DNA of 64,000 bases from Ancylobacter oerskovii. GTDB taxonomy: Bacteria > Pseudomonadota > Alphaproteobacteria > Rhizobiales > Xanthobacteraceae. The notes under the pieces are model-generated. The model ran no database searches, was not told where the DNA came from, and worked only from the letters and a program-made list of their open reading frames with translations. Numbering within the stretch: position 1 is the stretch's first letter; every line of letters begins with the position of its first letter. The position numbers and the translations under genes are program-made. Below are positions 8,760-42,057 of the stretch, in pieces. The stretch covers positions 461,424 through 525,423 of the forward strand of contig NZ_JAHBGB010000044.1 of NCBI RefSeq assembly GCF_018390555.1. Reading direction: 5' to 3'.

Positions 8760-8816
8760 GTGCCCGTTTATTGCGGGCCGGCGCCGTCCTGTTGTTTTTG
8801 AAGTTCGGATTGTTTG

Positions 8817-17510: not shown

Positions 17511-17535
17511 GGAACAGTTCGGCGATTAAGTCGTT
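17511..17535 (+). promoter_or_regulatory. EcfG-type (general stress) promoter of bphO-bphP
   Basis: GGAAC at 17511-17515, a 16-base spacer and CGTT at 17532-17535 match the alphaproteobacterial EcfG consensus exactly. The -10 element lies 53 bases before the bphO ATG, a normal leader length. Function is inferred from the consensus. Confidence 0.7.
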
Positions 17536-17588
17536 TTACGGGTTATTCGACGTCGGACGGTTCCGGCGGCCCTGATCTGTGTCTCCTG

Positions 17589-18146: not shown

Positions 18147-20691
18147 GGTCGTCGACCTCTCCAATTGCGACCGAGAGCCGATCCACATCCCCGGCAGCAC
18201 CCAGCCTCACGGCTGCCTGGTGGTCAGCGCCCTGGAGGACGGCCGGCTGCTGCGATGGTCGTCCAACGCGCCGGCCTTCCTGGCGTCCGGCGAGGCGATG
18301 CAGGGGCGCCGCCTCGCCGATCTGGTCGGCGAGGACGCGGCCGGCCGGATTGCGACCATTCTGGCCGATACCCGCGAGGGAATGCCGCCGCGCCTCGCCT
18401 TCGGCGTCGCCACCGCCTCCGGCGCGCGCTTCGACGTCGCGGTGCACCGTGCCGGCGGCGCCGGCATCGTCGAGTTCGAGCGCCATAGCGACGCGCACGG
18501 GCCGGCGCTCGATATCGCGCGCACCATGATCGCCCGCATCGCCCGCGAGATCTCGGTCGACGACCTGCTGGCCGAGGCGCCGCGCGTGGTGCGCGAGGCG
18601 CTCGGCTACGACCGGGTGATGGTCTATCGCTTCGCCCAGGACGGTGCCGGCCAGGTGGTCGGCGAGGACAGGCTGCCGGAGCTGGAAAGCTTCCTCGGCC
18701 AGTGGTTCCCGGCCAGCGACATTCCCCAGCAGGCCCGCGAGCTCTACACGCGCAACATCATCCGCGTCATCGGCGATGCCGGCGGCGAGCGTTGCAGCCT
18801 GGTGCCGGAGCTCGACGACCATGGCCGGCCGCTCGACCTGTCGCACGCGCATCTGCGCTCGGTCTCGCCCATCCATCTGGAATATCTGCGCAATATGGGG
18901 GTAGCGGCCTCCATGTCGATCTCGGTGATGGTGGACGGCGTGCTCTGGGGGCTGATCGCCTGCCATCATTATTCGCCGCGTGCGCTGCCCATGGCGCAGC
19001 GGGCGGCGGCGGAGATGTTCGGGGCGTTCTTCGCCCTGCATTTGCATGCGCTCCGGCAGAAGCGCACGCTGGAGGTGGCCACCGCCGCCCGCGGCGCGCT
19101 CGACCGCTTCCTGCGCCTCGCCTCGCATCACACCGATGTCGGCGAGCTGCTGCGCGGCAATATCGAGGAATTCGCCGGGCTGATGCCCTGCGACGGCGTC
19201 GGCCTGTGGCTCGGCGGCCGCTGGACCGCGCAGGGCGCCACTCCGCCGGCCTCCGCCTTGCCCGAGCTCGCCGCCTTCATCGGCACGCAGGCGCAGGGGC
19301 GGGTGTGGTCGACCGATTCGCTGGTCGAGGTCTGGCCGCCGGCCGAGGCCTTCTGGGAATCGGCCGCCGGCGTGCTGGCCCTGCCGCTGTCGCAGCTGCC
19401 GCGCGACTACCTGCTGTTCTTCCGCCGCGAGATCGTGCAGACGCTGGCCTGGGCCGGCCGGCCGGAGAAGATCTACGAGACCGGCCCGCATGGCGACCGC
19501 CTCACCCCGCGCAAGAGCTTCGCGATCTGGAAGGAGACGGTGCGCCGCCGCGCCAGCCCGTGGACCGACGCCGACCGCGAGATCGCCGAGGCGGCGCGCT
19601 CGGCCCTGGTCGAGATCGTGCTGCGCCACAACGAGCTGATGGCGGAGGAGCGCGAGAAGGCCGACACCCGCCAGCGCCTGCTCAACGAGGAACTGAACCA
19701 CCGGGTGAAGAACATCCTCGCGGTGATCAAGTCGCTGGTCGAGCATTCGGCGCAGGACGGGCGCAGCGTCGAGGATTACGTCGCCTCGCTGCGCGGGCGC
19801 ATCCAGTCGCTGGCCCTGGCGCATGACCAGGTGGTGCGGGGCGCCGGCGGCGGCGCGCTTGCCGACCTGCTGCGGGCCGAGCTCTCGCCCTATGAGGGCG
19901 CGTCCGCCCGCGCCAGCCTCGGCGGGCCGGTGGTGCGGCTCGATGCCCGTGCCTTCTCGGTCATGGCGCTGGTGCTGCACGAGCTCGCCACCAATGCCGC
20001 GAAATACGGCGCGCTGTCGCGTCCGGGCGGCCAGGTCGAGGTGCGCTGGAGCGTGGACGCCGCCGGCGATTGCGAGATCTTCTGGCGCGAGCGCGGCGGC
20101 CCGCCGGTCGCGCGGCCGGGACGCAGCGGCTTCGGCACCGCGCTGATCGAGCGCAGCATCCCCTACGATCTCGGGGGAGAGAGCGAGATGCGCTACGAGC
20201 CGGGCGGATTCGTCGCGCGGCTGAAGCTGCCGGGCCGGCACATTGCCGCCGGTTCCGCGGGTGACGAGGAATGGGCCGGCCGCCCGGCCGCGGAGGAGGA
20301 GGCGCCGGTCTCGCTCGCCGAGGCCTCCGTGCTGCTGGTCGAGGACCAGATGATCATCGCGATGGATGTCGAGTCCATGATGAACGAGGCCGGCATCGAG
20401 AGGATCACCACCGCCGCCTCGGCCGCCGATGCGTTGCGCCGGCTGCAGGAGATGACGCCCGACGTCGCGGTGCTCGACGTCAATCTCGGCTCGGGCACCT
20501 CGGCCCCGGTGGCGGAGGAACTGGAGCGCCGCGGCGTTCCCTTCGTCTTCGTCACCGGCTATGGCGACCGCTCGATGATCCCGCCGGGCAGCGCGCATAT
20601 CCGCGTGCTCACCAAGCCCTATGACCGCGACGTGCTGGTCGCGGCGCTGCGCGAACTCCATGCATCGAGGCGCGTGCCGGCCGCCGGCTAG
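18133..20691 (+). CDS. bphP: Bacteriophytochrome with HWE histidine kinase and C-terminal receiver
   Basis: The 852-residue red/far-red sensor has the biliverdin-binding Cys12 in NCDREPIHIPGSTQPHG. It continues with PAS, a GAF domain with PASDIPQQA (D196) and a PHY domain with the tongue motif PRKSF (459-463). The kinase is of the HWE/HisKA_2 type, with phospho-acceptor H523 in ELNHRVKNILAVIKSLV and the N-box HELATNAAKYGALS. The receiver domain at about 740-848 has D782 in VLDVNL. The architecture is that of Agrobacterium Agp2-like proteins, some of which are bathy-phytochromes. No separate response regulator is adjacent, so output may pass through its own receiver or a distant partner. Confidence 0.95.
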   Translation: MPSAEVVDLSNCDREPIHIPGSTQPHGCLVVSALEDGRLLRWSSNAPAFLASGEAMQGRRLADLVGEDAAGRIATILADTREGMPPRLAFGVATASGARFDVAVHRAGGAGIVEFERHSDAHGPALDIARTMIARIAREISVDDLLAEAPRVVREALGYDRVMVYRFAQDGAGQVVGEDRLPELESFLGQWFPASDIPQQARELYTRNIIRVIGDAGGERCSLVPELDDHGRPLDLSHAHLRSVSPIHLEYLRNMGVAASMSISVMVDGVLWGLIACHHYSPRALPMAQRAAAEMFGAFFALHLHALRQKRTLEVATAARGALDRFLRLASHHTDVGELLRGNIEEFAGLMPCDGVGLWLGGRWTAQGATPPASALPELAAFIGTQAQGRVWSTDSLVEVWPPAEAFWESAAGVLALPLSQLPRDYLLFFRREIVQTLAWAGRPEKIYETGPHGDRLTPRKSFAIWKETVRRRASPWTDADREIAEAARSALVEIVLRHNELMAEEREKADTRQRLLNEELNHRVKNILAVIKSLVEHSAQDGRSVEDYVASLRGRIQSLALAHDQVVRGAGGGALADLLRAELSPYEGASARASLGGPVVRLDARAFSVMALVLHELATNAAKYGALSRPGGQVEVRWSVDAAGDCEIFWRERGGPPVARPGRSGFGTALIERSIPYDLGGESEMRYEPGGFVARLKLPGRHIAAGSAGDEEWAGRPAAEEEAPVSLAEASVLLVEDQMIIAMDVESMMNEAGIERITTAASAADALRRLQEMTPDVAVLDVNLGSGTSAPVAEELERRGVPFVFVTGYGDRSMIPPGSAHIRVLTKPYDRDVLVAALRELHASRRVPAAG

Positions 20692-30637: not shown

Positions 30638-32137
30638 ATGGAAATCTTCGATCATCTGGCGCTGGGCTTCTCGGTCGCCTTCACCTTCCAGAACCTGTTC
30701 TACTGCTTCATCGGCGTGCTGCTGGGCACGCTGATCGGCGTGCTGCCCGGCCTCGGCCCGGTGCCGACCATCGCCATGCTGCTGCCGATCACCTTCGGCC
30801 TGCCGCCGGTCTCGGCGCTGATCATGCTCGCCGGCATCTATTACGGCGCGCAATATGGCGGCTCGACCACCGCCATCCTGATCAACCTGCCGGGCGAGAG
30901 CTCCTCGGTGGTCACCGCCATCGATGGCTACCAGATGGCACGGCAAGGGCGCGCGGGGGCGGCGCTGGCCACCGCGGCGCTCGGCTCCTTCTTCGCCGGC
31001 TCGGTCGCCACCTTCCTGCTCGCCGTCTTCGCCCCGCCGCTGGCCGACATCGCGCTGAAATTCGGCCCGCCGGAATATTTTTCGCTGATGGTTCTAGGGC
31101 TTGTGGCGTCGGTCTCGCTGGCGTCGGGCTCGGTGATCAAGGCGCTGGCGATGGTGGTGCTGGGTATCCTGCTCGGCCTGTCCGGTCAGGACGTCTATAC
31201 CGGCACGCCGCGCTTCACCTTCGATATCGTGGAACTGGCTGACGGCATCGAGTTCGTGGCGCTCGCCATGGGCCTGTTCGGCCTGGTCGAGATCATCCGC
31301 AACCTCGAGGACGAGCACACCCGCACCGTCATGGTGCAGAAGGTGCAGGGCCTCATGCTGTCCAGGGACGACATCAAGCGCATCATCGCTCCGGTGCTGC
31401 GCGGGACGGTGCTGGGCTCCTTCCTCGGCATCCTGCCGGGCGGGGGCGCCATGCTGTCCTCCTTCGCCTCCTATTCGATCGAGAAGCGGGTCTCGAAGGA
31501 TCCGCGGCAGTTCGGCAAGGGAGCCATCGAGGGAGTCGCCGGGCCGGAAAGCGCCAACAATGCCGGCGCGCAGACCTCGTTCATCCCCATGCTGACGCTC
31601 GGTATCCCGTCCAACCCGGTGATGGCGCTGATGATCGGCGCGCTGATCATCCAGGGCATCGTGCCGGGCCCCAATGTGGTGAACGAGCAGCCGAATCTGT
31701 TCTGGGGCATCATCGCCTCCATGTGGATCGGCAATTTCATGCTGGTGGTGCTGAACCTGCCGCTGATCGGCATCTGGGTGCGGCTGCTGACGGTGCCGTA
31801 CCACATCCTGTTCCCGCTGATCATCGGCTTCTGCTGCATCGGCGTCTACAGCGTGAACAACAACGTCTACGACGTCTATGCGATGGCGCTGTTCGGCGTG
31901 GTTGGCTACCTGCTCGTGAAGCTGGAATGCGAGCCGGCGCCGTTGCTTCTGGGCTTCATCATCGGGCCGATGCTGGAGGAATATCTCCGCCGCGCCATGC
32001 TGATTTCCCGCGGCGATCCGAGCGTGTTCGTCACCCGCCCGCTTTCGGCGGTAATGCTTGGCATTGCGGTGCTGGCGTTGGCGGTGGTGCTGCTGCCTTC
32101 GGTGCGCAAGAAGCGCGAAGAAGCATTTAAGGAGTGA
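30638..32137 (+). CDS. tctA: Tripartite tricarboxylate transporter, large membrane subunit
   Basis: The 499-residue permease has about 12 helices. It carries the duplicated glycine-rich motifs GVLPGLGPVPTIAMLLPIT and LGILPGGGAMLSS, plus YGAQYGGSTTAILIN and GPESANNAGAQ, all characteristic of TctA. The ATG at 30638 follows CGGAGAG. A hairpin follows the stop. Confidence 0.94.
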   Translation: MEIFDHLALGFSVAFTFQNLFYCFIGVLLGTLIGVLPGLGPVPTIAMLLPITFGLPPVSALIMLAGIYYGAQYGGSTTAILINLPGESSSVVTAIDGYQMARQGRAGAALATAALGSFFAGSVATFLLAVFAPPLADIALKFGPPEYFSLMVLGLVASVSLASGSVIKALAMVVLGILLGLSGQDVYTGTPRFTFDIVELADGIEFVALAMGLFGLVEIIRNLEDEHTRTVMVQKVQGLMLSRDDIKRIIAPVLRGTVLGSFLGILPGGGAMLSSFASYSIEKRVSKDPRQFGKGAIEGVAGPESANNAGAQTSFIPMLTLGIPSNPVMALMIGALIIQGIVPGPNVVNEQPNLFWGIIASMWIGNFMLVVLNLPLIGIWVRLLTVPYHILFPLIIGFCCIGVYSVNNNVYDVYAMALFGVVGYLLVKLECEPAPLLLGFIIGPMLEEYLRRAMLISRGDPSVFVTRPLSAVMLGIAVLALAVVLLPSVRKKREEAFKE

Positions 32138-32143
32138 AAAAAT

Positions 32144-32173
32144 TGCCCGGGCCCATAGACAGGCCCGGGCAGC
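32144..32173 (+). terminator. Hairpin after tctA
   Basis: The 9-bp perfect stem GCCCGGGCC/GGCCCGGGC has an 8-base loop and lies 7 bases after the tctA stop. Only a weak T tract follows (AGCTTTGG), so termination may be partial or Rho-assisted. Confidence 0.6.
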
Positions 32174-32228
32174 TTTGGTACACGACCGCCGCTCGCGAGG
32201 GAAATGTCCTCGCCGAAGCAACCCGGTC

Positions 32229-32304
<76 letters not shown>

Positions 32305-32430
32305 CTCTTCAAGAGTGGATCTTTCCGACCGGTTCGTTGCCGAGCGCCAAATCTCATCAGGATTGGATGCGGCGATATCGCTGGTGCGATTCGACGATCT
32401 TTCTCCGTCCCCGCCGGGCCCGCCGCGCCG

Positions 32431-33291
32431 CTAGAGCATGGGCGCTCCGCCGGTGACGGCGATGGTGGCGCCGGAGACGTAGCTCGACAGCGGGTCCGCC
32501 AGCATGACATAGGCCGTGGCCAGCTCGGCCGGCTGGCCGGGCCGCTTCATCGGCACCTGTTCGCCGAAATGCGCCACCTTCTCAGCCGACATGGTGGAGG
32601 GAATCAGCGGCGTCCAGATCGGGCCGGGCGCCACCGCATTGGCGCGGATGCCCTTCTCCGCGAGCATCTGCGCCAGACCGGCGGTGAAATTCTGGATCGC
32701 CCCCTTGGTGGTCGCATAGGCGAGCAGCGACGGATTCGGCTTGTCGGAATTGATCGAGGCGGTGTTGATGATGGCACTGCCCGGCTTCATGTGAGGCACC
32801 GCCGCCTTGCTGATGTAGAACATCGCATGGATGTTGACCCGGAACGTCAGCTCCCATTCCTCGTCGCTGATATCGCCGATTTCCGCGAAGGTCGCCTGGT
32901 GCGCAGCGTTATTGACGAGGATGTCGATGCCGCCCAACTGCGCCATGGCTTCCTCCACGATGTGGCGGCAATGCGCGGCATACTGGATGTCGCCGGGAAG
33001 AAGCACGGCCTTGCGCCCGGCACCGCGCACCAATTCGGCGGTTTCGGCGGCGTCCTCGTCTTCCTCCAGATAGGAGATCAGCACATCCGCCCCCTCGCGG
33101 GCATAGGCGATGGCGACGGCGCGGCCGATGCCGCTATCCGCGCCGGTGATGATCGCCTTCTTGCCGAGGAGGCGACCGGAACCGCGATAGGTCCATTCCC
33201 CATGGTCGGGACGTGGCTTCATCGCTTCGGTACGGCCCGGCATGGGCTGACGCTGTTCGGGAAAGGGCGGCTCGGGACGATTGTCCAGCAT
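32431..33291 (-). CDS. YghA-like SDR oxidoreductase (stress-associated)
   Basis: The 286-residue short-chain dehydrogenase has an N-terminal extension rich in Pro, then the cofactor motif TGADSGIG, NNAAHQ and the catalytic YATTK with Ser in NTASINS. The extension and the motif LLPGDI are typical of the YghA/YdaD group, often annotated as general stress protein 39-like oxidoreductases acting on aldehydes or ketones. An EcfG-type promoter lies 42 bases upstream. It is divergent from the DUF72 gene. Confidence 0.9.
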   Translation of the reverse strand: MLDNRPEPPFPEQRQPMPGRTEAMKPRPDHGEWTYRGSGRLLGKKAIITGADSGIGRAVAIAYAREGADVLISYLEEDEDAAETAELVRGAGRKAVLLPGDIQYAAHCRHIVEEAMAQLGGIDILVNNAAHQATFAEIGDISDEEWELTFRVNIHAMFYISKAAVPHMKPGSAIINTASINSDKPNPSLLAYATTKGAIQNFTAGLAQMLAEKGIRANAVAPGPIWTPLIPSTMSAEKVAHFGEQVPMKRPGQPAELATAYVMLADPLSSYVSGATIAVTGGAPML

Positions 33292-33332
33292 GGTCAGGCC
33301 TCCTGATCCTTGAAGGGCGGAATCCAACGGCC

Positions 33333-33357
33333 AACCGTCTGCGATGCCGATGGTTCC
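33333..33357 (-). promoter_or_regulatory. EcfG-type promoter of the SDR gene
   Basis: On the minus strand GGAAC (33357-33353), a 16-base spacer and GGTT (33336-33333) match the general-stress consensus with one permitted variation. The -10 lies about 42 bases from the SDR start. Confidence 0.65.
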
Positions 33358-33365
33358 CATGCGAG

Positions 33366-33390
33366 GGAACTCGCCCCGGCGCCGTCGGTT
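33366..33390 (+). promoter_or_regulatory. EcfG-type promoter of the DUF72 gene
   Basis: GGAAC (33366-33370), a 16-base spacer and GGTT (33387-33390) lie 33 bases before the DUF72 ATG. Together with the opposite site it forms a back-to-back pair only 8 bases apart. Confidence 0.65.
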
Positions 33391-33422
33391 CTCGCCCCAA
33401 GGACGAGTGACGAGGGCAGGCG

Positions 33423-34355
33423 ATGACCCGATCTTCCCGCACGCGACACCATGACGGGCCGGGCGCTATCCGCATCGGCGTTTCCGGCTGGACCTATGCT
33501 CCCTGGCGCGGCCATTTCTACCCGCAGGGGTTGGTGCAGAAAAAGGAGCTCGCCTATGCGGCCGGGCAGTTTCCGGCGCTGGAGATCAACGGCACCTTCT
33601 ATGGCTTGCAGAAACCGGATGTCTTTGCGCGCTGGGCGGACGAGACGCCGGAGGATTTCGTCTTCACGGTGAAGGGCTCGCGCTACATCACCCATACCCT
33701 CAGACTGAGGGAGGCCGAGGTGCCGCTCGCCAATTTCCTCGCCTCCGGCGTCTTGAGGCTCGGGCGGAAGCTCGGGCCGCTGCTCTGGCAATTGCCGCCG
33801 AGCTTCGCCTTCGATCGGGAACGGATGGAGGCGTTTCTGGCGCTGCTGCCGAAGGACACCGAGGCGGCGGCCACGCTTGCCCGGCGCCACGATGCCCGCC
33901 TCGAGGGGAGGGACTGGGCGCGGACCGATGCTCACCGCCCGTTGCGGCACGCGGTGGAAATCCGCCATGACAGCTTCCGCGATCCGGCATTCATCGCGCT
34001 GTTGCGGCGGCATGGAGTGGCGCTGGTTTGCGCGGATACGGTGAAGTGGCCGAGGCTGATGGATCTCACCTCCGACTTCGTCTATTGCCGCCTGCATGGC
34101 TCTACCGAGCTTTATCGTTCCGGCTATGACGGCAAGGATCTGCGGCGCTGGGCCGAGCGCGTCGCGGCATGGTCGCGTGGCCGCGAGATGCCGGACGGTG
34201 AATTCGCGGGCAAGGCTGGGGCGCCTCACCAACCGCGCGATGTCTTCCTGTTCTTCGACAATACCGACAAGCGCCATGCGCCCGCGAACGCCAGGACCCT
34301 GATGGAACTCCTGCACGTGGACTGGCAGGGAGATTCCGGCCGGTCGGCGGCGTGA
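33423..34355 (+). CDS. DUF72 (YecE-like) protein
   Basis: The 310-residue TIM-barrel-like protein has the DUF72 signatures IGVSGWTYAPWRGHFYP, EINGTFYGLQKP, FVFTVKGSRYITH and YCRLHGSTELYRSGY. The biochemical role of the family is unknown; members often sit among DNA-repair or stress genes, as here. The ATG at 33423 is preceded by an EcfG-type promoter. Confidence 0.9.
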   Translation: MTRSSRTRHHDGPGAIRIGVSGWTYAPWRGHFYPQGLVQKKELAYAAGQFPALEINGTFYGLQKPDVFARWADETPEDFVFTVKGSRYITHTLRLREAEVPLANFLASGVLRLGRKLGPLLWQLPPSFAFDRERMEAFLALLPKDTEAAATLARRHDARLEGRDWARTDAHRPLRHAVEIRHDSFRDPAFIALLRRHGVALVCADTVKWPRLMDLTSDFVYCRLHGSTELYRSGYDGKDLRRWAERVAAWSRGREMPDGEFAGKAGAPHQPRDVFLFFDNTDKRHAPANARTLMELLHVDWQGDSGRSAA

Positions 34356-34361
34356 GGGGCG

Positions 34362-34386
34362 GGAACCACGCCCTGCGCCCGACGTT
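34362..34386 (+). promoter_or_regulatory. EcfG-type promoter of pfpI-udgX
   Basis: GGAAC (34362-34366), 16 bases, then CGTT (34383-34386) is a perfect consensus. It begins only 7 bases after the DUF72 stop and lies 33 bases before the next ATG. Confidence 0.7.
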
Positions 34387-34419
34387 CGGCTTGAGGGGGA
34401 GCGAACAAGGGAGCGTTCC

Positions 34420-34983
34420 ATGCCGGACATTCACGATGCCCGCATCCTCATCATCTCCGCGAACGGCTTCGAGCAATCGGAACTGACGGTTCCGCGCGAC
34501 GACCTGCGTGCCGCCGGCGCGCGCGTCGAGGTGGCAAGCCCCGACGGACAACCGATCCGCGGCTGGAAGGGAAAGGACTGGGCCGATACGGTGGAGGTCG
34601 ATCTGTCGCTGACGGCGGTGCGGCCACAGGATTACGACGCACTGGTCATCCCCGGCGGGCAGATCAACCCGGATCTGCTGCGGGTGGACGCGAACGCGAT
34701 GAAGATCGTCAGGAGTTTCCTCGACAGCGGCAAGGTCGTGGCCGCGATCTGCCACGGGCCGTGGGTTCTAGTAGAGGCGGATGCCGTGCGCGGGCGCACC
34801 GTGACGTCCTACGCCTCGATCCGCACCGATGTGAGGAATGCGGGGGGGAGGTGGGTCGACCGCGAGGTTGCGGCCGATCAGGGCATCGTCACCAGCCGTT
34901 CGCCGGCCGATCTCAAGGCCTTCGTCGCCAAGATCGTCGAGGAAATCCGGGAAGGCCGCCATGATCGGCGGAGGGTGGCGTGA
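34420..34983 (+). CDS. PfpI/DJ-1 family protein (YhbO-like)
   Basis: The 187-residue class I glutamine-amidotransferase-fold protein has the nucleophile elbow AICHGPW, with Cys then His, and the acidic residue in SANGFEQSEL. Family members are called intracellular proteases, general stress protein 18 or glyoxalase/deglycase; which activity applies here is unknown. The last four bases overlap udgX (GTGA), so both proteins are translationally coupled and under the same stress promoter. Confidence 0.9.
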   Translation: MPDIHDARILIISANGFEQSELTVPRDDLRAAGARVEVASPDGQPIRGWKGKDWADTVEVDLSLTAVRPQDYDALVIPGGQINPDLLRVDANAMKIVRSFLDSGKVVAAICHGPWVLVEADAVRGRTVTSYASIRTDVRNAGGRWVDREVAADQGIVTSRSPADLKAFVAKIVEEIREGRHDRRRVA

Positions 34984-35645
34984 CGTCCGAACGGGGGCGG
35001 GTGGGGCGGGATTTCGCGTCGCTCGGCGACCTGAACGAGGCCCTGCGGGCGGCGCTGTCGCCCGGCCCCGGCATCGGCCGGGTGGTGGCGGGCGAGGGGC
35101 CGGCCCCCGCCTCTGTCGCCTTTGTGGGCGAGCAGCCCGGCGACGAGGAAGACCGCCAGGGGCGCCCTTTTGTCGGCCCGGCCGGCCGCCTTTTCGATCG
35201 CGCGCTCGGCGAGGCGGGCATCGACCGGCGCCGCATCTATGTGACTAACGCCGTGAAGCGCTTCAATTTTCTGGAACGCGGCAAGCGCCGGCTGCACCGC
35301 AAGCCGACGGCCGGCGAGGTGTCGCATGAGCGCTGGTGGCTGGAGCGGGAGCTCGAACTGGTGGAACCGCGCCTGGTGGTCGCGCTCGGCGCCACCGCCG
35401 GGCAGGCGCTGGCGGGACGGCGGGTGGCGGTGACGCGCGAGCGGGGGCCGCTCGCCTTCGGGCCGTGGCGGGGCTACCTCACCGTGCACCCCTCCTATTT
35501 GCTGCGGATACCCGACGAGGCGGCGAAGCAGGAGGCCCATGCCGCCTTCGTCGCCGACCTCGTCGCGGTGCGCCAGCTGGCCGGGCCGCTGGGCGGCGGC
35601 CGGTACGATGAGGTGGAGGATGGGAACGATATGCCGGCCCCGTAG
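34980..35645 (+). CDS. UdgX-type uracil-DNA glycosylase
   Basis: The 221-residue protein belongs to the family 4/UdgX group: GEQPGDEEDRQGRPFVGPAGRLFD, YVTNAVKRFNF, then GKRRLHRKP. The KRRxH insertion with H106 is the signature of UdgX, which in mycobacteria attaches covalently to the abasic site left after uracil removal. Family 4 iron-sulfur cysteines are not seen in the expected pattern. GTG 34980 overlaps the pfpI stop. It probably acts in DNA repair during stress. Confidence 0.88.
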   Translation: MTSERGRVGRDFASLGDLNEALRAALSPGPGIGRVVAGEGPAPASVAFVGEQPGDEEDRQGRPFVGPAGRLFDRALGEAGIDRRRIYVTNAVKRFNFLERGKRRLHRKPTAGEVSHERWWLERELELVEPRLVVALGATAGQALAGRRVAVTRERGPLAFGPWRGYLTVHPSYLLRIPDEAAKQEAHAAFVADLVAVRQLAGPLGGGRYDEVEDGNDMPAP

Positions 35646-35660
35646 GCCGATCGGGCCGAT

Positions 35661-36398
35661 TCACGACGAACCGCGCGCGCCCAGCACCATTTCCCGGAAC
35701 CAGCCGAGCAGCAGGGTCGAATAGGCCTCGCGGAATTCCTTCTCGGAGAGCGCGTGGTCGGCGCCCTCGATCACCCGGTAGGTGAGCGACCGGGCGTTGC
35801 GGAAGGCGGCGACGTAATTGGCGACCGTGGTGTGGGGGACGAGGTCGTCATGCTCGGATTCGATCGCCAGCACGTCGCCCTCGAAGCGGGAGCAGGCGGC
35901 GAGCGCGCGGTTGTCGTCCGGCCCCACCTGCGAGTTGCGGTAGGTGGTGAGGTCGAGCCGGTCGAGCTGCCCCTTGGCCAGCGCCCAATGCTCGTCGCGA
36001 TAGAGGGCGGGCACCCGCAGCGACAGCCAGCGGACCGGGCGGAACGAGGAGAGGATGGTGGCGAGATAGGCGCCATAGCTGGAGCCGATCACCGCCATCG
36101 ATTTCCGGTCGACGAGGGGATGGCCGGCGAGCGCGTCATAGGCGGCCACCGCATCGTGCAGGTTCTGCCGCGGGGTGACGCTCATGCGCATCGCCTCGGT
36201 GGCGGCATGGCCGCGCAGGTCGAAGGTCAGGCAGACGCAGCCGAGCTCGGCGATGGCCTTGGCGCGCTTGAGGTCGCCCTGCTGGCTGCCGGTCCAGCCA
36301 TGCAGGAACAGCACGCCGGGCACCCCGGTGCGCGGCACGGCAAAGGTGCCGTCGATGTGTTCGCCATCGACGGCGATGCAGATCTTCTCATGATGCAC
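35661..36398 (-). CDS. Alpha/beta hydrolase
   Basis: The 245-residue protein has the fold markers LFLHGWTGSQQG (oxyanion HG), the nucleophile S107 in GSSYGAY, an acid in SEHDDLVPH and the final His in GADHALSEKEF. This resembles dienelactone hydrolase or peptidase S9-like hydrolases. The substrate is unknown. Its first 11 bases overlap the end of the DUF3182 gene, so the two form one transcription unit, which starts at an EcfG-type promoter. Confidence 0.85.
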   Translation of the reverse strand: MHHEKICIAVDGEHIDGTFAVPRTGVPGVLFLHGWTGSQQGDLKRAKAIAELGCVCLTFDLRGHAATEAMRMSVTPRQNLHDAVAAYDALAGHPLVDRKSMAVIGSSYGAYLATILSSFRPVRWLSLRVPALYRDEHWALAKGQLDRLDLTTYRNSQVGPDDNRALAACSRFEGDVLAIESEHDDLVPHTTVANYVAAFRNARSLTYRVIEGADHALSEKEFREAYSTLLLGWFREMVLGARGSS

Positions 36399-37551
36399 GG
36401 TAGCGGGCCTCGATGGTGGCGTATTTGAGCAGCGGGCCGACCACGGGATCGTCGCCCTGGTAGTAGACGAAGCTGTCGTCCGGCAGGTCGCCGGCGCGCC
36501 GGCCGATGGCGCCGTAGCGCTCGGTGCAGGAGGTGCGCACGGCGACGAGGTCGGGCTCGTCGTGGAAGGCCTCGAAGGCGGCGATCTCCGCCCCCGAGGC
36601 CCCGCCGATGCGCCAGGATTGCTCGAGCACGCCGATGCGCGGCTTGCCGCGCGCGTCGCGGCCGGCGATGACGTCGTAATTGCGCCGGGAGGCGATCAGG
36701 CCCGGGAAATGCTGCATCGCCGCGCCGTCATAGACGAGCGCGCATTCCACGGCGCGGCGCGCCGTGGCGTCGAGCTCGAGGGCGAGCAGCGCCTCAAGAT
36801 CGCCGGGCACCACGGTGAGCGTCGAGCCGCCATAGGCCGCGACGCCGGCATTGTCCCGGGTCGTGCTCTGCTGCCCGACATAGGACAGGATGGTGTCGTC
36901 GATACGCACCCGGCCGATGCTGAAGGTGACGGCGTCCGACAGATCCTCCTCCAGCACCACTCCCTGCTCGGCCAGCAGATCCCGCTCCAGTGCCGCGAGG
37001 GCGGCCTCGCAGGCCACGGCATCGGCGACGATCGCCTGTTCGCGGCCGCCATCCGACCAGCCGGGCTTCACCCGCAGCGGGCCGCGCGGCAGCAGGAGGC
37101 CGGCGGCACGGCGGGCGGCATCGATGTCGAAGGCGGAAAAGCCGGCGGGCACCACCTCGCGGACGGCGAGGCCGAAAGCGTTCGACCAGCCTTCCGGCCG
37201 CGTGGCGTCGTCGTCGGGCAGGGGGTGGGTGATCGCCTTGCCGGCCTGCACGGCATAAGGCACCAGGCCGCCGAAGAAATCGCGCTCGCTCTCGATGCCG
37301 AGCCGCGCCGCGAATTCCCCGCCCACCAGGGTCTCGACCGGAACGGCGTAGACGCGCAGCTGCGCCATGCCACCCTCGGACAGCGTGAGGATGGGGCTGC
37401 CGCGCAGGCTGGCGATGCGGCGCGCCAGCGCCTCCACCGCCTGATGGCGATGGCCGAGCATGTCGCCCGGCTCGGCTACCAGCGCGACCGCGGCACCGGT
37501 CGGCCGGGCGACGGGACGGTTCGAGAGCGGCAATCCTTCGAGAGAACCCAT
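36388..37551 (-). CDS. DUF3182 family protein
   Basis: The 387-residue protein is mostly soluble. The segment LLPRGPLRVKPGWSDGGREQ, followed later by the acidic VVLEEDL, resembles ATP-grasp ligase motifs, and DUF3182 proteins have been grouped near that fold; the assignment is tentative. I chose ATG 37551, since the 59 codons upstream are low-complexity. Pairing with the alpha/beta hydrolase by overlap suggests a joint job. An EcfG-type promoter lies upstream. Confidence 0.8.
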   Translation of the reverse strand: MGSLEGLPLSNRPVARPTGAAVALVAEPGDMLGHRHQAVEALARRIASLRGSPILTLSEGGMAQLRVYAVPVETLVGGEFAARLGIESERDFFGGLVPYAVQAGKAITHPLPDDDATRPEGWSNAFGLAVREVVPAGFSAFDIDAARRAAGLLLPRGPLRVKPGWSDGGREQAIVADAVACEAALAALERDLLAEQGVVLEEDLSDAVTFSIGRVRIDDTILSYVGQQSTTRDNAGVAAYGGSTLTVVPGDLEALLALELDATARRAVECALVYDGAAMQHFPGLIASRRNYDVIAGRDARGKPRIGVLEQSWRIGGASGAEIAAFEAFHDEPDLVAVRTSCTERYGAIGRRAGDLPDDSFVYYQGDDPVVGPLLKYATIEARYRAS

Positions 37552-37593
37552 GCGCGGTTTCCTTCCTCGCAGCGGCAAACGAACTGCCGGATC

Positions 37594-37619
37594 AACCGGC
37601 CGGGCTCCATCCGGGTTCC
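37594..37619 (-). promoter_or_regulatory. EcfG-type promoter of the DUF3182-hydrolase operon
   Basis: On the minus strand GGAAC (37619-37615), a 17-base spacer and GGTT (37597-37594) lie 43 bases before the DUF3182 ATG. Confidence 0.6.
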
Positions 37620-37672
37620 CTCTCGTCACGAAGCTTTGGCAGCCGGCCGGGCGGCCCCGGCCTCGCATGAAT

Positions 37673-37706
37673 GCGGCCGCCCCGATCCGCAGATCGGGAC
37701 GGCCGC
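37673..37706. terminator. Long hairpin after the KGG gene
   Basis: A 15-bp stem with one mismatch and a CGCA loop lies between the KGG gene (minus strand) and the DUF3182 promoter. No T run follows on either strand, so it may be an mRNA 3' stabiliser or a Rho-assisted terminator. Confidence 0.5.
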
Positions 37707-37733
37707 CGCTCGTGTCAGGCCTCGTCAAGGCGA

Positions 37734-37958
37734 CTAGCGCTGGCCGCCCTTGTGGCCGGCCTCACGCGCCCGTTCCTTGTCATTGGCGAAATTGCCGGGG
37801 TTGCCGTGCTGGCCACCCTGCTGGCGCGGCTCGCCGCCCGACTGGGCGTGCTGCTGGCCGCCGTGGGAGTGTTCACCGCCCTTGCGGCCGGCTTCGCTGG
37901 CGCGTTCACGATCCTCGGCAAAATTGCCGGAACCGCCACGATGTTGCGTGTTCGCCAT
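37734..37958 (-). CDS. KGG-repeat stress-induced protein
   Basis: The 74-residue hydrophilic protein contains two KGG units (GNFAEDRERASEAGRKGG and GNFANDKERAREAGHKGG) separated by a Gly/Gln/His-rich linker. The family (con-10/YciG-like) is intrinsically disordered and accumulates under general stress; molecular function is unknown. An EcfG-type promoter lies 40 bases before the start. Confidence 0.9.
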   Translation of the reverse strand: MANTQHRGGSGNFAEDRERASEAGRKGGEHSHGGQQHAQSGGEPRQQGGQHGNPGNFANDKERAREAGHKGGQR

Positions 37959-37997
37959 ATCGAATTCTCCTGTCGGATTTCGCCCCCCTGTCGAACC

Positions 37998-38022
37998 AAC
38001 CGATCAGGATGGAGCCTGTTCC
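37998..38022 (-). promoter_or_regulatory. EcfG-type promoter of the KGG gene
   Basis: On the minus strand GGAAC (38022-38018), 16 bases, then GGTT (38001-37998), with a 40-base leader to the KGG start. Confidence 0.65.
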
Positions 38023-38097
38023 AAGGTAAAATCGGCAGGAGCCGAGGCCGCCTGGGCAGGCTTTCGACGGCGTCGTGCCGCCCTGGCGCGCCTGCCT

Positions 38098-38123
38098 CGA
38101 ACCCTCGGGCCCGGTCGGGCGTT
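38098..38123 (+). promoter_or_regulatory. Weak EcfG-like promoter before mgtC
   Basis: CGAAC (38098-38102, one mismatch), a 17-base spacer and CGTT (38120-38123) lie 73 bases before the MgtC start. The mismatch and long leader make it less certain than the others. Confidence 0.35.
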
Positions 38124-38196
38124 GTGAGGCGGGACGAGGCGGCTCGCGGCGGCTCGCGGGGTCCCGCAAGAGGATCACCACGGCCGGAGCTTCGAG

Positions 38197-38715
38197 ATGG
38201 ACCTGCTGGCGCCAGCGGATTTGGAGGCGATGATGCGGCTGCTCGCGGCGGTCGCCTGCGGCATGCTCGTCGGGCTGAACCGCGATTTGCGGGGCAAGCC
38301 GACCGGCATGCGCACGCTCGGCCTCGTCAGCCTCGGCGCCGCGCTGGTCTCGCTGACCGCCATGGGCGTCGCGGGCATCGAGGGACATGCCGACGCCACC
38401 AGCCGCGTGGTCCAGGGCATCATCCAGGGCGTGCTCACCGGCATCGGCTTCGTCGGGGCGGGGGTGGTGCTGCGCAATCATCGCGACCTGGAGGTGCACG
38501 GCCTGACCACGGCGGCGGCGGTATGGGTCACTGCGGCGCTGGGCATCGCCTGCGCGCTGGCCTCATGGCACCTCATCGTGATGGCCCTGGTCATCACGCT
38601 GGTGCTGCTGGAGCTGGTGCGGCCGCTCGAGCGGCTGCTGGAAGGCCGGGGGCCCGCCTCCGGCCGGCCGCCACCGGCGGGCGAGAAAGAAGCGGGCGAG
38701 GAGCCCAGGAGCTGA
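38197..38715 (+). CDS. MgtC/SapB family membrane protein
   Basis: The 172-residue protein has four to five membrane helices. It shows the MgtC-type signatures GMLVGLNRDLRGKPTGMRTLGLVSLGAAL, GVLTGIGFVGAGVVLR and GLTTAAAVWVTAALGIA. Members support growth at low magnesium or modulate the ATP synthase in pathogens; no such role is shown here. The short C-terminal tail is charged. It sits in the stress island. Confidence 0.9.
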   Translation: MDLLAPADLEAMMRLLAAVACGMLVGLNRDLRGKPTGMRTLGLVSLGAALVSLTAMGVAGIEGHADATSRVVQGIIQGVLTGIGFVGAGVVLRNHRDLEVHGLTTAAAVWVTAALGIACALASWHLIVMALVITLVLLELVRPLERLLEGRGPASGRPPPAGEKEAGEEPRS

Positions 38716-38720
38716 ACCGG

Positions 38721-38745
38721 GGAACGCCGCCTCGCACCGGGCGTT
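38721..38745 (+). promoter_or_regulatory. EcfG-type promoter of the 55-residue ORF
   Basis: GGAAC (38721-38725), 16 bases, CGTT (38742-38745): a perfect consensus starting 5 bases after the mgtC stop, with 51 bases to the next ATG. Confidence 0.65.
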
Positions 38746-38796
38746 CTTCCCTGGAGCCGGCCACGGCCGGCATGGTCGAAAACGAGGAGGTGGCCG

Positions 38797-38964
38797 ATGC
38801 GCTGGCTGGCGCAGCTTCTGGTGGATTTCGGGCTGATGCGGCCCCGGCGCGAACGGCCGGGCCGGCAGCGGCAGGCACGGCCGCCCATGGACGACCGCCC
38901 CGCCGGGGACGGCACGCTGGACGGGGTGCCGAGCACTCCGCGCCCGCGCCCGGAGCGGGGCTGA
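38797..38964 (+). CDS. Small stress-island protein, 55 residues
   Basis: ATG 38797 is preceded by GAGGAGG with a six-base gap, one of the best ribosome sites in the window, and by a perfect EcfG-type promoter. The product begins MRWLAQLLVDFGLMRPRRER, an amphipathic helix, then becomes Arg/Pro-rich and probably disordered. No family is recognised. It ends 12 bases before the convergent oxidoreductase gene. Coding status rests on the promoter and ribosome site. Confidence 0.55.
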   Translation: MRWLAQLLVDFGLMRPRRERPGRQRQARPPMDDRPAGDGTLDGVPSTPRPRPERG

Positions 38965-38976
38965 CGGCGCCGCCGG

Positions 38977-40401
38977 CTAGGACGGCAGGCCGTCGGACGG
39001 GTCGACCATGGCGCCGGGGTTCATGATCCCCTGCGGGTCGAACAGCCCCTTGATGCCGCGCAGCACCCGGTAGCGGCCGGGATCGGCATAATGCTGCAGC
39101 AGCTCGCGCTTCAGCCGTCCCACCCCGTGCTCGGCGCTGAAGGTGCCGTCCATGCCCGCCGCGATGTCGTAGAGCTGCGGCGCCAGTTCGCGCCCGATGC
39201 GGGCGGTGAAGGCGAGGCGCTCCTCGCCCGGCGGCACCAATATGTTGTAGTGGAGATTGCCGTCGCCGACATGGCCGTAGACGGAGAGTTCGAGGCGCGG
39301 ATCATAGGCGGCGACGGCGGCGCCGCCCTGCGCCAGGAAGTCGACGGTGCGACTGAGCGGCACCGAGATGTCGTGCTTCACCGAGCCGCCGGCCCGCTTC
39401 TCGCCCTCGGGGATGGTCTCGCGGATCTGCCACATATCCGCGCGCTGGGCTTCGGTCTGGGCGATGATGATGTCCTCCGCCCAGCCCTGCTCGACCAGCT
39501 CGCCCATCGCGCCTTCCAGCACCGCCTCGACCGGCAGGTGACGGGAGGAGGAGGAGAGCTCGACCAGGATGACACCGCCGCTGCCGCTCTTCAGCCGGCC
39601 GCCGGGCGCGCGCACCAAGGCGAGCGAGCGGGCGGTGATGAACTCGAAGGAGGAGACGAGCTCGCTGGTCTCGCGGCGGACCAGCGCCAGCATCTCCGGC
39701 AGCGGCACGCCGGGCGCCAGCTCGACCCAGGCGGTGGCGCGGCGGGTGGGGGCGGGGATCAGCTTGAGCACCGCGCCGGTGACGACGCCGAGGGTGCCCT
39801 CCGCCCCGATGAAGTTCTGCCTTATGTCGTAGCCGGTGTTGTTCTTGCGCAGCCGCCTCATGTCCGACACCAGCGTGCCGTCCGGCAGCACCACCTCCAG
39901 GCCGAGGATGAGGTCGCGGGTCATGCCGTAACGCAGCACGGACAGGCCGCCGGCATTGGTGCCGATGACGCCGCCGATGCGGCAGCTCCCCTCCGAGCCG
40001 AGGCTGAGCGGCAGATAGAGGCCCGCCGCCTCGGCCGCCTCCTGCGCGTGCTTGAGGATGACGCCGGCATCCACCGACAGCGCGGCGTCGAGCGGATCGA
40101 CCGAGCGCACCTTGTCGAGGCGCTCCAGGCTGAGCACGAATTGCCGGCCGGAGGCGTCCGGCGTGGCGCCGGCGCAATAGCTGGTATTGCCGGCTTGCGG
40201 CACGATGCCGACGCGGTGGCGGGCGGCGAGGCGCATGATCGCCATCACCTGCGGGGTGGAGGCCGGTCGCAGCACCGCCGGGGTGCTGCCCTTCACAAGA
40301 TCGCGCTGATCCACCACATAGGGGACGAGCCGCTCGGGATCCGTCAGCACGCCGGCTTCGCCGAGCTCGTCGCGCAGGGCGCGCAGCATCTCGTCGGACA
40401 T
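38977..40401 (-). CDS. FAD-linked oxidoreductase (D-2-hydroxyacid dehydrogenase type)
   Basis: The 474-residue protein has an N-terminal PCMH-type FAD-binding domain (VPQAGNTSYCAGATP, GSEGSCRIGGVIGTNAGG, NFIGAEGTLGVVTG). The C-terminal FAD-oxidase domain has YGHVGDGNLHYNI, FSAEHGVGRLKRELL and DPQGIMNPGAM. It belongs to the GlcD / D-lactate / D-2-hydroxyglutarate dehydrogenase group; the electron acceptor and exact substrate cannot be told. No glcE or glcF is beside it. Confidence 0.88.
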   Translation of the reverse strand: MSDEMLRALRDELGEAGVLTDPERLVPYVVDQRDLVKGSTPAVLRPASTPQVMAIMRLAARHRVGIVPQAGNTSYCAGATPDASGRQFVLSLERLDKVRSVDPLDAALSVDAGVILKHAQEAAEAAGLYLPLSLGSEGSCRIGGVIGTNAGGLSVLRYGMTRDLILGLEVVLPDGTLVSDMRRLRKNNTGYDIRQNFIGAEGTLGVVTGAVLKLIPAPTRRATAWVELAPGVPLPEMLALVRRETSELVSSFEFITARSLALVRAPGGRLKSGSGGVILVELSSSSRHLPVEAVLEGAMGELVEQGWAEDIIIAQTEAQRADMWQIRETIPEGEKRAGGSVKHDISVPLSRTVDFLAQGGAAVAAYDPRLELSVYGHVGDGNLHYNILVPPGEERLAFTARIGRELAPQLYDIAAGMDGTFSAEHGVGRLKRELLQHYADPGRYRVLRGIKGLFDPQGIMNPGAMVDPSDGLPS

Positions 40402-40430
40402 GGGCTTTCCTTCCCTCGCTCGCCTGACCG

Positions 40431-40712
40431 GTGCGGAATGCGGTCGGGTGTCGACATAGCCGATTCACCGGCCCATTGTCCGCGTTTCAGGAGTTCGCCG
40501 CCATTCACGCCACCAGCATCCTCTGCGCCCGCTGCCTGCGCTGCGGGCGACGCTCCATCCTCGGACGCAGCGAGCAGCTGGACGCGCTGCCCGACGCGGA
40601 CGGCGCGCCACCGGCGCGGCTGCGCTGCGACATTTGCGGCGGGCGGCGCATCGAGATCGTCCACGCCCAGGGGCCGACCGAGGTGGTAGCGTTCATCTCC
40701 GGGCGCCGCTGA
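40431..40712 (+). CDS. Small zinc-ribbon-like protein
   Basis: The 93-residue frame opens with GTG 40431; no ATG is available. It contains two CxxC pairs, CARCLRC near residue 32 and CDIC near residue 70, which would make a zinc ribbon. The final part predicts beta strands. No family name can be given. It is divergent from the FAD oxidoreductase gene with only 29 bases between starts, so the true start could be further downstream. Confidence 0.5.
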   Translation: MRNAVGCRHSRFTGPLSAFQEFAAIHATSILCARCLRCGRRSILGRSEQLDALPDADGAPPARLRCDICGGRRIEIVHAQGPTEVVAFISGRR

Positions 40713-40716
40713 GGCG

Positions 40717-40741
40717 CGAACCAAAATCGGCGCCGCGCGTT
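40717..40741 (+). promoter_or_regulatory. Weak EcfG-like promoter
   Basis: CGAAC (40717-40721, one mismatch), 16 bases, CGTT (40738-40741) lie 36 bases before the ATG of the next small membrane protein gene. Confidence 0.4.
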
Positions 40742-40777
40742 GTGCCGTCGGGTCCCCTTCGGAACAGGAGAGTGGAG

Positions 40778-41035
40778 ATGGCCAAGCGCGACACCTCGAA
40801 CATGGCCGCCGGTACGGCAAGCGTGCGCCCCCGCGCCGCGATGGCCGCCCGGGCGCCGCGGACGACGCAGGACATCGTCTCGGCGCTGCCGGACGTGCCG
40901 CTGCCCGACGATGTCGGGCTCGAGCCGTCCCTGCCGGAGCGGAACGCCGGGCTGCCGGAGCGCAAATATTCGTTCAACGCGCTGGTGGCGGTCGGGATCG
41001 CCGGTTTTCTCGTCGGCCGTTTGCTGTCACGCTGA
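40778..41035 (+). CDS. Small C-terminally membrane-anchored protein (YqjD/ElaB-like topology)
   Basis: The 85-residue protein has a disordered N-terminal part and one C-terminal helix, FNALVAVGIAGFLVGRLLSR. A terminal helix ending in GRLLSR is the pattern of DUF883 (YqjD/ElaB) inner-membrane proteins that bind ribosomes in stationary phase, but the body lacks clear similarity. AGGAGAG precedes the ATG. A possible EcfG-like promoter fits a stress role. Confidence 0.65.
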   Translation: MAKRDTSNMAAGTASVRPRAAMAARAPRTTQDIVSALPDVPLPDDVGLEPSLPERNAGLPERKYSFNALVAVGIAGFLVGRLLSR

Positions 41036-41061
41036 GCGCCGATCCGCAAGGAACCGTCTTC

Positions 41062-42057
41062 ATGCAAACGCTTACCGTGCGCCATGTCACGCACTACGCC
41101 TATGCCAATCCCGTGGTGTTCCAGCCGCACCGGCTGATGCTGCGCCCGCGCGACAGCCACGACCTGCGGCTGGTGGGGGCCGAATTGACGCTGTGGCCGC
41201 ACGGCAATATCCGCTGGATGCACGACGTGTTCGGCAACTCGGTCGCGGTGGTGGACTTCATCGAGCCGTCCAACGAGCTGAAGATCGAGAGCCTGCTGAC
41301 CATCGAGCGCTATGGCCTCGGCTCGCCGGTCTTCGAGGTGGACGAGGGGGCGGCGAGCTACCCCTTCGTCTATTCCACCGACGACCGCACCGATCTCGGG
41401 CGCATGCTCGAATGCCACTATCCCGATCCGAATGGCGAGCTGGAGGCCTGGGCCAAGGGCTTCATCGCCAGCCGGCCGACCGACACCCTGGCGCTGCTCG
41501 CCGACATCAATGCCGGCATCCATACCGGCTTCGCCTACCAGGTGCGGCACGAGCAGGGCACCCAGCCGCCGCTGGAGACGCTGCGGCTCGGCTCGGGCTC
41601 CTGCCGCGATTTCGCGCTGCTGCTGATCGAGGCGGTGCGCGCGCTGGGCTTCGGCGCCCGCTTCGTCACCGGCTATCTCTACGACCCGGCGCTCGACGGT
41701 GCCAATGCCGGCATCGTCGGCGGCGGCGCCACCCATGCCTGGGCGGACATCTACCTGCCGGGCGCCGGCTGGATCGAGTTCGACCCCACCAACGGCCTGA
41801 TCGCCGCCGACAACCTGATCCGGGTAGCGGTGACGCGCGATCCCAGCCAGGCGGTGCCGGTGGCCGGCGGCTTCACCGGGCTGGTGGGCGACTATCTCGG
41901 CATGACGGTCGACGTGGCGGTGCGCAGCTATCAGCCGGAGATGCCGGCCGCCGAGGCGCCGCCGGCGGAGGCGATTGTCCCTGCCGGGGAGGCGCAAGAC
42001 GGGGAGACGGAGGAGGGGGCGGTGCCGGGCGCCCCGTCGGAAAAGATCGTGGCCTGA
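41062..42057 (+). CDS. Transglutaminase-like cysteine protease family protein
   Basis: The 331-residue protein has an N-terminal beta domain (TVRHVTHYAYANPVVFQPHRLMLRPR) and a transglutaminase-like core. The catalytic triad is C181 in GSCRDFA, His in THAWADIYLPGAGW and Asp in FDPTNG. Such bacterial proteins probably act as peptidases or amidases; the substrate is unknown. The C-terminal ~50 residues are Pro/Ala/Glu-rich. It lies 26 bases after the small membrane protein gene and ends at a strong terminator. Confidence 0.9.
   Translation: MQTLTVRHVTHYAYANPVVFQPHRLMLRPRDSHDLRLVGAELTLWPHGNIRWMHDVFGNSVAVVDFIEPSNELKIESLLTIERYGLGSPVFEVDEGAASYPFVYSTDDRTDLGRMLECHYPDPNGELEAWAKGFIASRPTDTLALLADINAGIHTGFAYQVRHEQGTQPPLETLRLGSGSCRDFALLLIEAVRALGFGARFVTGYLYDPALDGANAGIVGGGATHAWADIYLPGAGWIEFDPTNGLIAADNLIRVAVTRDPSQAVPVAGGFTGLVGDYLGMTVDVAVRSYQPEMPAAEAPPAEAIVPAGEAQDGETEEGAVPGAPSEKIVA

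Follow-up and report, generated by a model that had tools for sequence, protein, structure and literature searches.

Regulons are usually thought to grow by a gene acquiring a promoter in place. The regulon of the sigma factor EcfG (sigma-EcfG/RpoE2/SigT) is controlled by the PhyR-NepR-EcfG chain, which receives inputs from HWE/HisKA2 kinases and is established in other alphaproteobacteria (PMC4814048, PMC12148442). In the available sections of two accounts, its targets are described gene by gene or operon by operon (PMC4814048, PMC6599016). Here, we analyzed a stretch of 64,000 nucleotides (nt) of Ancylobacter oerskovii (GCF_018390555.1, NZ_JAHBGB010000044.1, positions 461,424–525,423; hereafter the window), which belongs to an 850-kb contig of this genome (C39). 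At ~32,340–40,500, between a tRNA-Lys(CTT) gene and a conserved block formed by orf93 and a transglutaminase gene, it contains an islet of ~8.16 kb with six units that are each preceded by an EcfG-type promoter motif. The islet shares with the described regulon its promoter and its master switch, as outlined in the available part of PMC4814048, and differs from it in being a compact block of targets whose regulators lie elsewhere and whose site is empty in relatives. We propose, with a probability of roughly 0.7, that this block is a horizontally acquired islet of damage-protection genes wired to EcfG, their expression being predicted from the sequence.

We define the strict EcfG-type motif as GGAAC-N16/17-[CG]GTT and its weak form as carrying CGAAC in place of GGAAC; the consensus printed for M. 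extorquens, as given in the available text, reads GAAC-N16,17-C/GGTT (PMC4814048). An earlier reading of the window from its letters (the original prediction) had reported six strict sites located about 30–55 nt ahead of start codons. All six are present, with coordinates and strands confirmed and measured gaps of 32–51 nt, and similar site-to-start distances are seen in many of the genes printed for the S. melonis EcfG regulon in the accessible part of PMC6599016. The two weak matches reported at 38098 and 40717 were also recovered as CGAAC sites, 73 nt before the MgtC gene and 38 nt before orf84, respectively. The pair of PfpI and UdgX had been named as one served unit; PfpI indeed has a site, but UdgX has none of its own. 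Finally, the right limit had been set at 41035, which includes two genes beyond the inserted block. The features of the region are as follows (ORF, open reading frame):

32229–32304, plus strand: tRNA-Lys(CTT), left landmark, intact, with CCA
32334–32340: left junction, where nucleotide similarity to genomes G704 and G709 stops (G258: 32304)
32431–33291, minus strand: SDR oxidoreductase (Pfam adh_short_C2), same-genus orthologues at 83–84%
33333–33357, minus strand: EcfG-type promoter, N16, 41 nt before SDR
33366–33390, plus strand: EcfG-type promoter, N16, 32 nt before DUF72; strict site in 9/15 DUF72 orthologues
33423–34355, plus strand: DUF72 protein (Pfam, 239.7 bits)
34362–34386, plus strand: EcfG-type promoter, N16, 33 nt before PfpI; strict site in 6/7 PfpI orthologues
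34420–34983, plus strand: PfpI/DJ-1 family deglycase or protease (Pfam; TIGR01382 above cut-off)
34980–35645, plus strand: UdgX uracil-DNA binding protein, overlapping the PfpI stop (TIGR03914, 243 bits, cut-off 190)
35661–36398, minus strand: alpha/beta hydrolase (Pfam), overlapping the DUF3182 end
36388–37551, minus strand: DUF3182 protein (Pfam, 423.9 bits)
37594–37619, minus strand: EcfG-type promoter, N17, 42 nt before DUF3182; site in 5/11 orthologues, one of them doubtful
37734–37958, minus strand: KGG-repeat small stress protein (Pfam PF10685)
37998–38022, minus strand: EcfG-type promoter, N16, 39 nt before KGG
38098–38123, plus strand: weak site CGAAC-N17-CGTT, 73 nt before MgtC; site in 0/2 MgtC orthologues
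38197–38715, plus strand: MgtC-family membrane protein (Pfam)
38721–38745, plus strand: EcfG-type promoter, N16, 51 nt before the 55-aa ORF
38797–38964, plus strand: 55-aa ORF, no Pfam family
38977–40401, minus strand: FAD-linked oxidase, GlcD-like but under the cut-off of that model, within the inserted block, no strict EcfG site ahead
40497–40502: right junction, where similarity resumes (40500–40502 in G258, G704 and G709; 40497 in G707)
40500–40712, plus strand: conserved part of orf93, right landmark (the listed ORF begins at 40431)
40717–40741, plus strand: weak site CGAAC-N16-CGTT, 38 nt before orf84, in a conserved neighborhood outside the islet

The expected rarity of chance matches is borne out by the statistics. 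A first-order Markov null model of the 8.8 kb around the islet yielded a mean of 0.115 sites and a maximum of 2 in 400 runs, against 6 observed, and none of 20,000 random placements of the 146 merged genomic sites on 5.48 Mb put six of them within 5.5 kb. When the spacer was varied from 10 to 24 nt, the same 8.8 kb contained five matches at 16, one at 17, one at 20, two at 23, and zero at all other lengths. Nine same-genus stretches, picked by similarity to DUF72 or UdgX, have 23 matches at spacer 16 and 17 at spacer 17, with 0–5 at each of the others. Five stretches from other families, three of which (L192, L193, L196) were picked as site-rich or adjoining a module, have 29 and 11, with 0–2 at the others, and 14 empty-site stretches of relatives lacking the islet show no peak at spacers 16 and 17 (6 and 0 matches; 0–6 at the others). 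Thus, spacer 16 stands out within the islet itself, and spacer 17 only in the related stretches. The whole-genome motif scan proposed with the original prediction returned 97 CGTT and 54 GGTT sites, that is, 151 strict matches, against 84 (53 and 31) for the reversed control; a lone match is therefore weak evidence, and this cluster strong evidence. At a scale of 5.5 kb, no place in the genome is denser than the islet and the nepR-ecfG/phyR locus, with six sites each, and at 8.6 kb the islet comes second (6 vs 8).

A physical stress module set apart from the master regulators had been predicted, and the genome agrees, with nepR, ecfG and phyR located on contig C12 and the window on C39. A genome-wide search for NepR gave one match, located on C12 beside ecfG and phyR; further copies of the latter two were not searched for. 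At this locus (L047), nepR-ecfG and phyR point away from each other and are preceded by strict sites at 8800–8824 (minus strand) and 8863–8887 (plus strand). Among their products, Pfam identifies PhyR, NepR and a sigma-70-type factor (regions 2 and 4). The presence of the motif before nepR-ecfG and phyR is a positive control for its use in Ancylobacter oerskovii. From the cluster we strongly infer that its six units are likely members of the EcfG regulon gathered in one block.

The boundaries of the islet are defined by comparison with the closest relatives. Similarity to them stops at 32304–32340 and resumes at 40500–40502, which indicates an insertion of ~8.16 kb; in same-genus relatives, tRNA-Lys adjoins orf93 and the transglutaminase gene. 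We examined 29 such relatives, 28 of which show both the tRNA and orf93 (G279 was left out, and TctA is out of view in G697 and G694). At the tRNA-Lys site, none of these 28 genomes has any of nine islet proteins at an identity of at least 55%. The interval between the tRNA and orf93 measures 41–433 nt in 20 of the 28 and 1.3–6.2 kb in the other eight (G713, G702, G707, G697, G711, G699, G695, G706), where it holds other cargo that has no strict EcfG site. By eye, a similar signaling-type protein recurs in several of these other-cargo intervals. The weak site before orf84 occurs in 3 of the 29 relatives (G258, G704, G709) in an orf93-anchored search, which may miss others.

The gene trees add to this picture. 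In the transglutaminase and TctA trees, the species groups with G258, G704 and G709. A DUF72 orthologue was not found in G704 or G709, where the best matches reach 53% and 55%, and G258 has DUF3182, hydrolase, UdgX, DUF72 and SDR genes on another contig and in another order (L115). Unlike in the transglutaminase and TctA trees, the G258 protein pairs with G199 of another genus in the DUF72 tree (97/97) and with G697 in the SDR tree (96/92), conflicts that would favor a separate acquisition. Identities between the window and G258 are 94% for TctA, 97% for TctC, 83% for TctB, 88% for the transglutaminase and 91% for OYE, compared with 83% for SDR, 74% for DUF72, 75% for UdgX, 86% for the hydrolase and 58% for DUF3182.

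Such co-location had been taken to be unusual; it is not unique to this cluster, as modules made of the same genes recur, reshuffled, in genomes of the same genus and of other families. DUF72 orthologues of at least 66% identity occur in 10 of 30 genomes of the genus, its own included. G077 and G700 carry SDR, DUF72, PfpI, two Ku, MgtC and a PLD-VTT protein together; G258 has DUF3182-hydrolase, UdgX, DUF72, SDR and topoisomerase IB; G697 has topoisomerase IB, isochorismatase, UdgX, DUF72 and SDR, with PfpI and two Ku elsewhere; and G695 has DUF3182-hydrolase, DUF72 and SDR (Ku, PLD-VTT and isochorismatase were assigned by Pfam). In G711, G699, G696 and G692, DUF72 is present, in three of the four together with PfpI, and the rest of the set is not there. 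Outside the family, G045 has Ku, DUF72, UdgX, KGG, SDR and DUF3182-hydrolase, and in G121, a member of a third family, a site-rich region holds UdgX, PfpI, DUF72 and two Ku. The gene order of the module differs between most lineages, and many genes of the shuffled modules carry EcfG sites of their own, with Ku genes alongside in several. The accompanying Ku and topoisomerase IB have relatives on the S. melonis list: in the available part of that report, EcfG-dependent genes with such motifs include Ku and topoisomerase IB, and the list also has a catalase (PMC6599016). A 732-aa protein of G077, with a relative in G700, was initially considered to be KatE, an assignment that we rejected because the protein is PLD-VTT, and a DUF2188 assignment for a 91-aa protein received no Pfam support.

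Promoter conservation across these rearrangements was measured in two ways. The first and less biased used the 29 loci that were best by SDR protein similarity alone, with the window's own row dropped. A strict site lies within 300 nt upstream in 10 of them, or in 11 of 30 when L115, which had been taken for DUF72 and UdgX, is included; a CGAAC site occurs at a further four, and the reversed control gave 1/30. At the same 30 loci, 319 scrambled motifs averaged 0.13 and never exceeded 3. The second covered twelve families with 90 orthologues in all. A strict site lies within 250 nt of 48 of them, whereas spacers 13/14 gave 0, spacers 19/20 gave 1 and the reversed motif gave 0; because some loci were fetched for their sites, this second count is the less clean of the two. 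By gene, strict sites were found for SDR in 12/21, DUF72 in 9/15, PfpI in 6/7, UdgX in 0/6, KGG in 1/1, MgtC in 0/2, Ku in 6/8 and 3/8, PLD-VTT in 2/2, topoisomerase IB in 2/3, the 91-aa protein in 2/6, and DUF3182 in 5/11, the last figure being doubtful because the site of an A. fabrum plasmid lies inside the annotated gene.

These data suggest how the islet would work. HWE/HisKA2-type stress-sensing kinases would activate PhyR, which would take NepR off EcfG, and RNA polymerase with EcfG would then start the six units of the islet together; MgtC, with its weak site, and the FAD oxidase, with no site, also lie within it. The PfpI-type deglycase or protease would be co-transcribed with the uracil-DNA binder UdgX, and the products (an SDR reductase, DUF72, PfpI-UdgX, the putative ATP-grasp/hydrolase pair, KGG and a small protein) would limit damage. 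Given the class-wide conservation of EcfG and its promoter, an incoming gene with its own promoter would be wired into the stress response of the recipient at once. The stress roles of the proteins are read from family names, and transcription and transfer between species are likewise deduced.

Several observations weigh against an acquired, EcfG-wired islet. No integrase or transposase domain was detected in the ten islet proteins scanned, the window contains no second copy of the tRNA 3′ end, and a repeat shared by both islet ends was not found. The G+C content in 1-kb windows (0.63–0.74 inside, 0.64–0.74 outside) does not clearly differ. Further neighbors of the islet are 74–87% identical to their G258 counterparts (orf93 78%, TrpE-like 74%, HlyD 80%, MarR 87%, EmrB 87%), so that the contrast in identity between islet and flanks is modest, and neither the DUF72 nor the SDR tree resolves the place of the window's own genes. 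With respect to the promoters, a strict site within 250 nt is missing in 9/21 SDR and 6/15 DUF72 orthologues, UdgX (0/6), MgtC (0/2) and the FAD oxidase have no conserved promoter of their own, and the antisense control on the 90 orthologues gave 14 matches, in part from divergent neighbors.

The alternative that best withstands the comparison is an old, vertically inherited cluster, lost or moved in relatives, whose genes share a sigma factor and have drifted jointly with no transfer at all. It would explain why G258, G697, G695, G077 and G700 hold overlapping sets elsewhere, why six same-genus SDR proteins form one group (98/97), why the scanned islet proteins include no mobility genes, and why certain flanking proteins differ from their G258 counterparts as much as the islet proteins do. 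However, it has to account for the absence of the islet from the tRNA-Lys site in all 28 relatives, the closest clade included, for the lack of a detected DUF72 orthologue in G704 and G709, for G258 proteins that group with another genus (DUF72) or with G697 (SDR) against the core trees, and for a gene order that varies between most lineages. We therefore consider vertical inheritance unlikely.

The position of the islet, ~30 nt past a tRNA gene, in an interval that holds other cargo in 8 of 28 relatives and is therefore a variable spot, invites comparison with tRNA-associated islands. Like these, it lies just past a tRNA, is absent in 28/28 relatives and likely represents adaptive cargo at a variable site. 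Unlike them, it leaves the tRNA intact; the window shows no repeat of the tRNA 3′ end, the proteins scanned include no integrase, and six units of the islet carry a promoter for a sigma factor of the host. A conventional integrase-borne element, with the stress genes as passengers, might have entered at tRNA-Lys and since shed both the integrase and the right attachment site. Integrase-type insertion into the tRNA is nevertheless disfavored, as the tRNA is intact, its end is not repeated in the window, and similarity to G704 and G709 runs on for ~30 nt past the tRNA, which means that the break is not inside it; we regard such an origin as highly improbable. Chance matches, or sites of another regulator co-located with no regulatory meaning, are scarcely credible as an explanation: with 151 genomic matches against 84 reversed ones, over half of the single matches may be due to chance, but the cluster statistics and spacer profile, the placement 32–51 nt before starts, the retention of the motif through rearrangement, as compared with 319 decoys, and its presence ahead of nepR-ecfG and phyR all speak against it.

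Beyond the acquisition of this one islet, the recurrence of its genes raises a broader idea, namely a mobile pool of stress cassettes (genes or operons with their own EcfG promoter) that would move between chromosomes and plasmids across the alphaproteobacteria, land in varied combinations, and work at once through the class-wide EcfG. Ku end joining would be part of this pool too and, as a stress-induced function, could help to capture the next cassette. We put this idea forward tentatively and with the odds somewhat against it. Of 199 genomes from the order, 6 have a DUF3182 match above cut-off, as do 2 of 385 from the class (the window's own genome is counted in both); 8 and 11 more, respectively, show weaker partial matches. 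Plasmid records with a match number 9 for DUF3182, 174 for DUF72 and, at E 1e-80 or better, 317 for SDR. In 13 mapped plasmid stretches, a strict site on the right strand precedes SDR in 3/5, DUF72 in 2/6 and DUF3182 clearly in 0/4, as read from the maps. A plasmid of Bosea Tri-49 carries DUF72 and a trehalose operon with a site before each, and on a plasmid of Rhizobium T136 DUF72 lies beside the same kind of trehalose operon, again with a site before each. R. tropici CIAT 899 has 8 sites in 20.9 kb, a cluster weaker than this count suggests: three of the sites are one repeated sequence, two are one overlapping pair, and the spacer controls give 2 and 4. The islet thus resembles stress genes on plasmids of Rhizobium, Bosea and others, which include relatives of DUF72, SDR and DUF3182-hydrolase, some of the DUF72 and SDR genes having EcfG-type sites. 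It differs in that the window copy is located on an 850-kb contig beside genus-conserved genes, and the full gene set is found on 0 of the 13 plasmid stretches mapped.

As for the individual proteins, UdgX scores above the cut-off of its family model (TIGR03914) and has both GEQPGDEE and KRRLH; we take GEQPG and KRR[IL]H to be motifs of the UdgX family, KRR[IL]H being the R-loop motif. UdgX proteins capture uracil-DNA covalently. The islet gene differs from the family as known in overlapping a PfpI gene within a stress islet. For DUF3182, searches against solved structures, by single sequence or by profile, gave nothing significant, with ATP-grasp proteins appearing in the profile search only at E 0.36 and above; the accessible part of PMC4431377 classes the domain as ATP-grasp. 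The hydrolase adjoins DUF3182 in the 13 other mapped loci as well. A Pfam scan assigned no family to orf93 or orf84, and a search of 32000–41200 for known RNA elements returned the tRNA only. The site of the SDR gene falls within its longest possible ORF (reaching 33360); a start at 33291 is favored by homology and by an AGGAGG sequence. The FAD oxidase (38977–40401) may be a passenger or a gene under other control.

Within the open-licence literature, the promoter class is known, and we came across no description of such units as a mobile pool that is shuffled. In titles and abstracts of the same literature, we found no report that links EcfG with genomic islands, horizontal transfer or plasmids and, among the matches listed, none that links DUF72 with RpoE2 or EcfG and none of a UdgX-PfpI overlap in a stress islet; one paper, PMC5519681, contains both UdgX and "general stress". 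The islet, which has no regulator of its own, suggests that a stress regulon can grow by importing genes that already have the right promoter. If so, the stress-hardiness of soil or plant-associated species could change in one transfer, a condition under which DUF72, DUF3182 with its hydrolase, and UdgX act could be put to the test, and EcfG clusters could be used to find new stress genes.

Some further loci deserve mention. In the Ancylobacter oerskovii genome, C25:220642–225419 (L233) encodes Ku-LigD-Ku, each Ku being preceded by a strict site, at close range in one case and ~380 nt off in the other, and stress-controlled end joining in this species is possible; on C31, genes for topoisomerase IB, DUF2934 and DUF892 have sites. 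In G121, two adjoining stretches (C11:300500–334000; L192 and L193; 33.5 kb) contain 21 strict sites, against 1 in the reversed control, and include UdgX, PfpI, DUF72, topoisomerase IB and two Ku genes. In family f41, DUF3182-hydrolase is found in three stretches of ~19 kb (L130, L131, L132) with 10, 11 and 9 strict sites and none in the reversed control, several of the sites preceding small hypothetical proteins. At 17511–20691, the window itself holds a seventh strict site (17511–17535, plus strand), 53 nt before a heme-oxygenase-like ORF (below the Pfam cut-off) that overlaps the gene of a bacteriophytochrome, a 908-aa protein in which HWE kinase and receiver domains are present. The bacteriophytochrome could possibly provide a red-light input to the same stress switch while being under its control.

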